Assembly (NCBI RefSeq): GCF_964204645.1
Contig: NC_134025.1
Location: 28,860,001 to 28,924,000, forward strand
From: Tubulanus polymorphus
Lineage: Eukaryota > Nemertea > Palaeonemertea > Tubulaniformes > Tubulanidae
Length of the DNA: 64,000 nt
Direction: 5' to 3'
The stretch's first letter is position 1. The number at the start of each line of letters is the position of its first letter. Shown piece by piece: positions 32,762-34,417 of the stretch. Below the pieces are notes generated by a model. That model did no database searches, had not been told where the DNA came from, and saw nothing but the letters and a program-made list of their open reading frames with translations. The position numbers and the translations under genes were made by a program.

Positions 32762-34417
32762 TTAGGCGGCTTCTTTTTGGACTGCTTGGATTAGCGTTAT
32801 GTTGTCACCTTTTAACAAGATCCGACCTGAAACACAAATAATCAAATAATGATTAATCGATTGATACTGGATTAAAATGATTTCGTATTGATAAATCAAT
32901 TTTCAAACCTACCTAATTGTTTTCTGTTGTGAGTTTTCATATGAACTTCTTCCCCATCATCCAATACAAGATTCATGTACTCATCAAAACCCTGCACAGA
33001 TATAAAACAATATTGATAATATGCATGAAAATCAATAATTTCAGGTGGTGTTTTTGAGAAAGGTGTATTCTTCAATATCGTACTTACAACAATACAGCCT
33101 TCAATTCTCAAATTCGTTTGTTCATAAAGCCACACTTGAATTTTTGATCTCTGAAATTGAGAATTAAATTATCAAATTTTAAGGCAATTGCATAATTCAT
33201 TTAACATCATTGTCCTTTCTATGTCTATGATATTCAATTTACTATATGTCATGGCATCGTCATACCCCAGTCCCAGAGCTTAAAAATCGAAAAAAAATTC
33301 AACCAAAATATAATCTCTTTTCACTTATTTTTTGTTTGTCTAGAATTTTGGTATGATGATCATGTCATGATGGATGAATAATTAAGCAAAATCAAAATTA
33401 TCTCATTTGAATTGACAGTAAGAATACTTACACTTTGTAAATACCTGAATATCAAGTTCTGAAATTATGAGGTCAAGGAATGTAAAAATTCATCTAAGCT
33501 GCAAAATACTCTTATATACTCAGTCTTAAGGCGTTTTTGTGAGCCGATTCGAATAGGTCGATTAGCTATTATGCGCATTCGTGAGCCAAGGTGTTTAGGC
33601 TAATCGGTACATTTGTGAGACGATTTACATAAACTGATTTGGCAAATTCTCCTAATCGTCCCCGGAGGTGTTTAGGCGATTTGATTAGACCGGTTTTCAA
33701 TCAAAAATTAAAATGGCGGAGTGAATTCTTCTTCGTTATATTTTTCAACAGTTTTTTCAACATAATCATTAATCCGCCGTTTTTTATAGATACTTTTCGT
33801 ATGTTTCATTACTTCTGTTTCAAAAAATATACTGGAACTCGTAGGGCATAACAGATTATTTCTGACTGCTGTAATCTTCCCATTTTTATTTTGGTCTGGG
33901 TATTTGTCAGTTTTCAGCAGCTCATTGATAATAAGAAGCGCTGAACTCTTTTTCTTGTTGTCCATCATGGAGGCAGCCATGTTACCTAATCGAAGTAACT
34001 AAACTGCTCATCAAAACTGCTCAAAACCTCTATACAATCTATTCAGCTCACAAAAACGCCTTGGGCGAACTCTTTTATGACCTCCGAAGGCGAAGTCTCC
34101 GTCCGAAATCTCCGGTTGGCTCCACACAAAATTCGAATCACACCACCTCGACAGAAAGGTGGTTTCGGAGACTCCAAAAAGTCACGTGACCAATAAAAAG
34201 GTACGATTGGAGGCAAACGGATTCTCCGATCTGATAAAAGAGTTCGCCCCTTTAGTCTACAAAACTGATAATCTAAGCAGAGTAACAACAGACTAACTAC
34301 CCTAACTTAGAAACAAAAACATCAATAAGAAACTGATAAAAGTGTAATTTCTCAGATATTCAAGGATACAATCGGTTGCACCATCACTTTCTGTACTTTC
34401 TGCCCTTTGTAAGCCAT
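32762..34417 (-). CDS. SNRPE: Small nuclear ribonucleoprotein E (Sm-E)
   Basis: Core Sm-ring protein of spliceosomal snRNPs (U1, U2, U4, U5 and the minor U11, U12, U4atac). 93 residues in five exons: 34417-34370 ([16 protein letters not shown]), 33458-33432 (NLIFRYLQS), 33150-33088, 32991-32913, 32826-32762. Sm motif 1 is in [20 protein letters not shown] and [10 protein letters not shown]; Sm motif 2 is [14 protein letters not shown]. Near-identical to human SmE, except for a QKEAA tail. Exon 1 is too short for simple ORF calling; it was found by its near-match to the conserved N-terminus. Intron 1 is U12-type and holds two inverted-repeat elements. Head to head with SYCP1. Confidence 0.97.
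33528..34062 (-). mobile_element. 535-bp DNA transposon fragment with inverted repeats
   Basis: Terminal repeats AAGGCGTTTTTGTGAGC (33528) and its complement ending at 34062 are 17 bp and exact. It encodes on the minus strand a 90-residue open frame (33980-33708) starting [16 protein letters not shown] and ending [12 protein letters not shown]. The ending resembles the stretch before the nuclease domain in PIF/Harbinger transposases, but this is a weak inference. No catalytic domain is present, so it is a non-autonomous or truncated copy. Confidence 0.7.
34063..34249. mobile_element. 187-bp MITE abutting the previous element
   Basis: Terminal repeats GGGCGAACTCTTTTATGA (left) and the reversed right end GGGCGAACTCTTTTATCA match at 17 of 18 positions. 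CTT occurs on both sides (34060-34062 and 34250-34252), a 3-bp target duplication. Since the left CTT is the last 3 bp of the neighbouring element, this copy probably inserted into its end. Confidence 0.75.

Follow-up and report, generated by a model that had tools for sequence, protein, structure and literature searches.

The first intron of SNRPE, the gene for the core snRNP protein SmE, in the nemertean Tubulanus polymorphus is very probably a U12-type intron of the kind known in mammals, removed by the minor spliceosome and enlarged from about 185 to 911 nt by two transposon insertions. The features on which this reading is based are collected in Table 1, with positions counted in the window, that is, the whole 64,000-nucleotide stretch of DNA that we analyzed.

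Table 1. Features of the SNRPE gene and of its first intron, in window positions.
Feature	Position	Strand	Basis
SNRPE (SmE) gene, five exons	34417-32762	minus	homology gene model
SNRPE coding exon 1, 16 residues	34370..34417	minus	homology to human Sm-E
SNRPE intron 1, U12-type GT-AG, phase 0, 911 nt	33459..34369	minus	gene model
U12-type 5' splice site GTATCCTTGA	34360..34369	minus	motif; complementary to the genome's U11 5' end
Element 1, MITE-like, 187 bp, TIR GGGCGAACTCTTTTATCAG, TSD CTT, inserted second	34063..34249	minus	inverted repeats and genome copies
Element 2, internally deleted PIF/Harbinger, 533 bp, TIR AGGCGTTTTTGTGAGC, TSD TTA, inserted first	33529..34061	minus	inverted repeats and genome copies
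90-aa ORF within element 2	33708..33980	minus	matches longer Harbinger copies
U12-type branch site TTCCTTGAC	33472..33480	minus	motif; complementary to U12 GUAAGGAA
SNRPE exon 2, 27 nt, NLIFRYLQS	33432..33458	minus	gene model
SNRPE exon 3	33088..33150	minus	gene model
SNRPE exon 4	32913..32991	minus	gene model
SNRPE exon 5, coding part up to the stop codon	32762..32826	minus	gene model

The predicted intron boundaries of SNRPE were defined by homology. Splicing at these boundaries gives a frame for a 93-aa SmE with a Pfam LSM match, which aligns to human Sm-E from end to end (E = 4e-47) and so bears out the identity that a first-pass annotation had given to the gene; the limits proposed there for intron 1 (33459-34369) are likewise exact. 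Exon 1 ends in ...CAACCGATT at 34370, and exon 2 opens with AACTTGATATTC. We take the position of this intron to be the same in the human gene. Introns 2-4 carry ordinary donors of the GTAAGT or GTAGGT type. A six-frame search of the genome, which short exons can escape, found neither a second SmE gene nor a retrocopy. Head-to-head with SNRPE, on the plus strand from 34903 to beyond 37000, lies a gene for the synaptonemal complex protein 1 (SYCP1), whose hand-spliced first exons match the Pfam SCP-1 family (E = 3e-23); the two start codons are about 490 bp apart.

Both signals of a U12-type intron are found in intron 1, which starts with GTATCCTTGA and has TTCCTTGACCTCATAATTTCAG at its 3' end. 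The donor consensus RTATCCTT is present as GTATCCTT at 34369-34362, and the branch consensus TTCCTTRAY as TTCCTTGAC at 33480-33472. The branch A lies 14 nt from the 3' end, slightly past the optimum of 11-13 nt (PMC3584512). A first reading had described a textbook U12 intron, with its donor and a perfect branch site; both motifs stand, but the donor departs from the consensus at +9, where a G replaces the T and one possible pair with U11 is therefore lost. By eye, no distinct pyrimidine tract precedes the 3' splice site, the branch site being followed by CTCATAATTTCAG. Neither motif is remarkable alone, since their counts in the window are near expectation (nine RTATCCTT for 5.6 expected, three TTCCTTRAY for 3.6 expected). 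The chance of a donor falling exactly at the homology-defined junction is ~4e-5, that of a branch motif within the ~15 allowed positions ~4e-4, and arithmetic on the expected counts gives ~2e-8 for both being in place. There is a vanishingly small probability that intron 1 is spliced by the major spliceosome and that its U12 motifs are coincidental: GT-AG ends are common to both intron classes, but this joint chance, the lack of a clear pyrimidine tract ahead of the 3' end, the U12 machinery in the genome and the U12 intron that mammalian SNRPE likewise has all argue against it. Taking together the sequence, the snRNA genes and the precedent in mammals, we infer removal by the minor spliceosome, in which U11 and then U6atac would read GTATCCTTGA and U12 would read TTCCTTGAC.

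The minor-spliceosome RNAs are all encoded in the genome. Judged against the Rfam gathering scores, we detected above the cut-offs one gene each for U12 (111.8 bits), U11 (98.1 bits) and U4atac (73.0 bits), and two near-identical genes for U6atac (96.5 and 93.5 bits). The first-pass annotation had proposed a check for these four snRNAs, and their absence, which it held to be fatal to its reading, is excluded by the presence of all four genes. The 5' end of U11 (UAAAAGGGCC) and U6atac (AAGGAGAG) are predicted to be able to pair with the intron 1 sites, as is the branch-recognition stretch of U12 (GUAAGGAA) with the branch site, in a duplex where intron bases are bulged at the branch position. 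A further, diverged U6atac-like copy (L006, 1501-1611) scores 40.5 bits, also above the gathering score; its central region is intact and its 3' T run is absent, and it is probably a pseudogene. Counting against this reading, the U11-48K protein was not found: a search with the zf-U11-48K model returned only CHHC zinc-finger proteins. Two CHHC zinc-finger genes match this model (L054, L055), and their products are presumably GTSF1-like rather than U11-48K.

A U12 intron in this gene is already known from mammals. Mouse Snrpe is listed among the U12-intron genes in PMC7312986. Work on the minor intron of human SNRPE goes back to Patel et al. 2002, and PMC6717393, citing that study, describes it as retained more than the flanking major introns; PMC8034651 reports its retention in Roifman syndrome. 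The T. polymorphus intron is likened to these by gene and by intron class, and differs from them in that this copy carries two transposons. A literature search for the phrase 'SNRPE intron' found no paper, and no SmE passage was found in a Drosophila U12 profiling paper. The original reading of intron 1 is thus correct but mostly ordinary, the U12 intron in SNRPE being already known, and the new part is only the two ordinary, inactive intronic transposons.

The two inverted-repeat elements had been recognized from the sequence alone, and their families and target-site duplications (TSDs) are now confirmed genome-wide. For element 2, the genome search found eight further substantial copies: five aligned copies share one common internal deletion junction, and three others continue into longer elements. 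One longer relative (L045) codes for a transposase of the PIF/Harbinger type, DDE_Tnp_4 (E = 3.5e-37). The 3-bp TWA-type duplication of this superfamily is found as TTA around element 2 once element 1 is removed, and as TAA and TTA around two relatives (L038 and L039). Element 2 thus resembles the PIF/Harbinger DNA transposons (DDE_Tnp_4, HARBI1-like) in its 3-bp TSD and terminal inverted repeats (TIRs), and keeps part of their upstream ORF; unlike the longer related copies, which encode DDE_Tnp_4, it is internally deleted and non-autonomous. Its 90-aa ORF is the start of the frame that lies upstream in the longer Harbinger copies, truncated by the internal deletion. We also considered this ORF as a captured host gene and rejected this, because the identical frame opens the longer copies.

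The family of element 1 has at least 40 members in the genome. Among 30 aligned copies, most are 181 bp long with 0-2 changes from the consensus per ~178 sites, and of 19 copies examined, 13 have matching 3-bp flanks. The family is thus like MITEs with a 3-bp TSD, being short, bounded by TIRs and present in many near-identical copies, and its 3-bp TSD and TIRs agree with those of a PIF/Harbinger-derived MITE; a search for the exact TIR pattern identified no autonomous parent. With five changes in 178 sites and an internal duplication of 6 bp, the SNRPE copy has diverged further than its relatives among the matches listed. Many of the 181-bp copies at L016, L018, L020-L022, L026, L027 and L030-L032 have identical flanks and no TSD, and some of this set recur about 2.5 kb apart, from which it follows that one copy is carried along within a larger repeat.

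The order of the two insertions can be read from their junctions. When element 1 and one CTT are removed in silico, element 2 is left between two TTAs; when element 2 and one TTA are removed as well, a 185-nt intron with a clean empty site remains. The CTT of element 1 takes two bases from the very end of element 2 and one from the start of the TTA duplication of element 2, which places the insertion of element 2 before that of element 1. An earlier description of the second element as lying at the edge of the first, with a CTT duplication, is right in plus-strand order, and the order in the transcript is reversed. An SNRPE intron of about 185 nt has very probably grown in this lineage to its 911 nt through the insertion of two class II transposons: a PIF/Harbinger deletion derivative (TSD TTA) came first, and a MITE-like element, short and of high copy number (TSD CTT), later landed on the edge of element 2. 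Both insertions fall between the donor and the branch site and neither signal is disturbed; judging from these intact sites, the insertions are most likely neutral passengers.

The transposons might instead alter splicing through intron length, cryptic sites or folding of the inverted repeats, and in this species thereby adjust the expression of SNRPE. The rise from 185 to 911 nt is in keeping with such an effect, given that among mammalian minor introns retention is favored in shorter ones, whereas long ones more often undergo alternative splicing (PMC6717393). We consider it improbable, as the donor and branch site remain intact despite both insertions and one of these comes from a high-copy family. 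That the expansion changes retention and thereby sets the supply of snRNP cores in this species is highly improbable; if true, minor splicing would be linked to the production of all snRNPs in a way tuned by transposons.

Passengers or not, the elements lie in an intron whose retention would matter for the protein, because translation would then run into VSLNI-stop and end after five intron codons. Slow minor splicing would leave intron 1 in the transcript and, through this stop, lower the output of SmE, as reported for other minor-intron genes; judged from the sequence and by analogy, intron 1 could have such an effect on SNRPE expression. The feedback loop raised by the first-pass annotation is possible in this sense, as a generic logical possibility common to other minor-intron genes. 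In a true loop, a fall in minor-spliceosome activity would leave the SNRPE intron in place, SmE would drop, Sm-core assembly would change, and the intron would be kept as a regulator. The in-frame stop, the single SNRPE gene found and the retention reported for human SNRPE (PMC8034651, PMC6717393) are consistent with this, yet we regard it as unlikely. Its sign would be positive, less minor splicing giving less SmE and fewer snRNPs, which is destabilizing rather than homeostatic. SmE is moreover common to the major and minor snRNPs (PMC3584512, table 1); as part of the Sm-class core in both spliceosomes, it does not belong exclusively to the spliceosome that removes intron 1, and RNA-processing genes in general commonly contain minor introns (PMC3584512).

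A known element of this type offers a comparison. The USSE is defined by two tandem U11-binding donor sites. As the feedback element of U11-48K and U11/U12-65K, it too couples a splicing-factor gene to the activity of the minor spliceosome, but it requires the tandem donors, and SNRPE intron 1 has one such site. Within this intron we found no USSE-like doubled site, TATCCTT occurring once only, which also argues against a true feedback loop (the USSE is mentioned in PMC3584512).

The minor-spliceosome intron enlarged by two insertions thus remains our preferred reading. It adds another animal genome in which a core snRNP gene would depend on the minor spliceosome, and shows cleanly how two DNA transposons can nest in a minor intron without damage to its recognition sites, while leaving current views unchanged.
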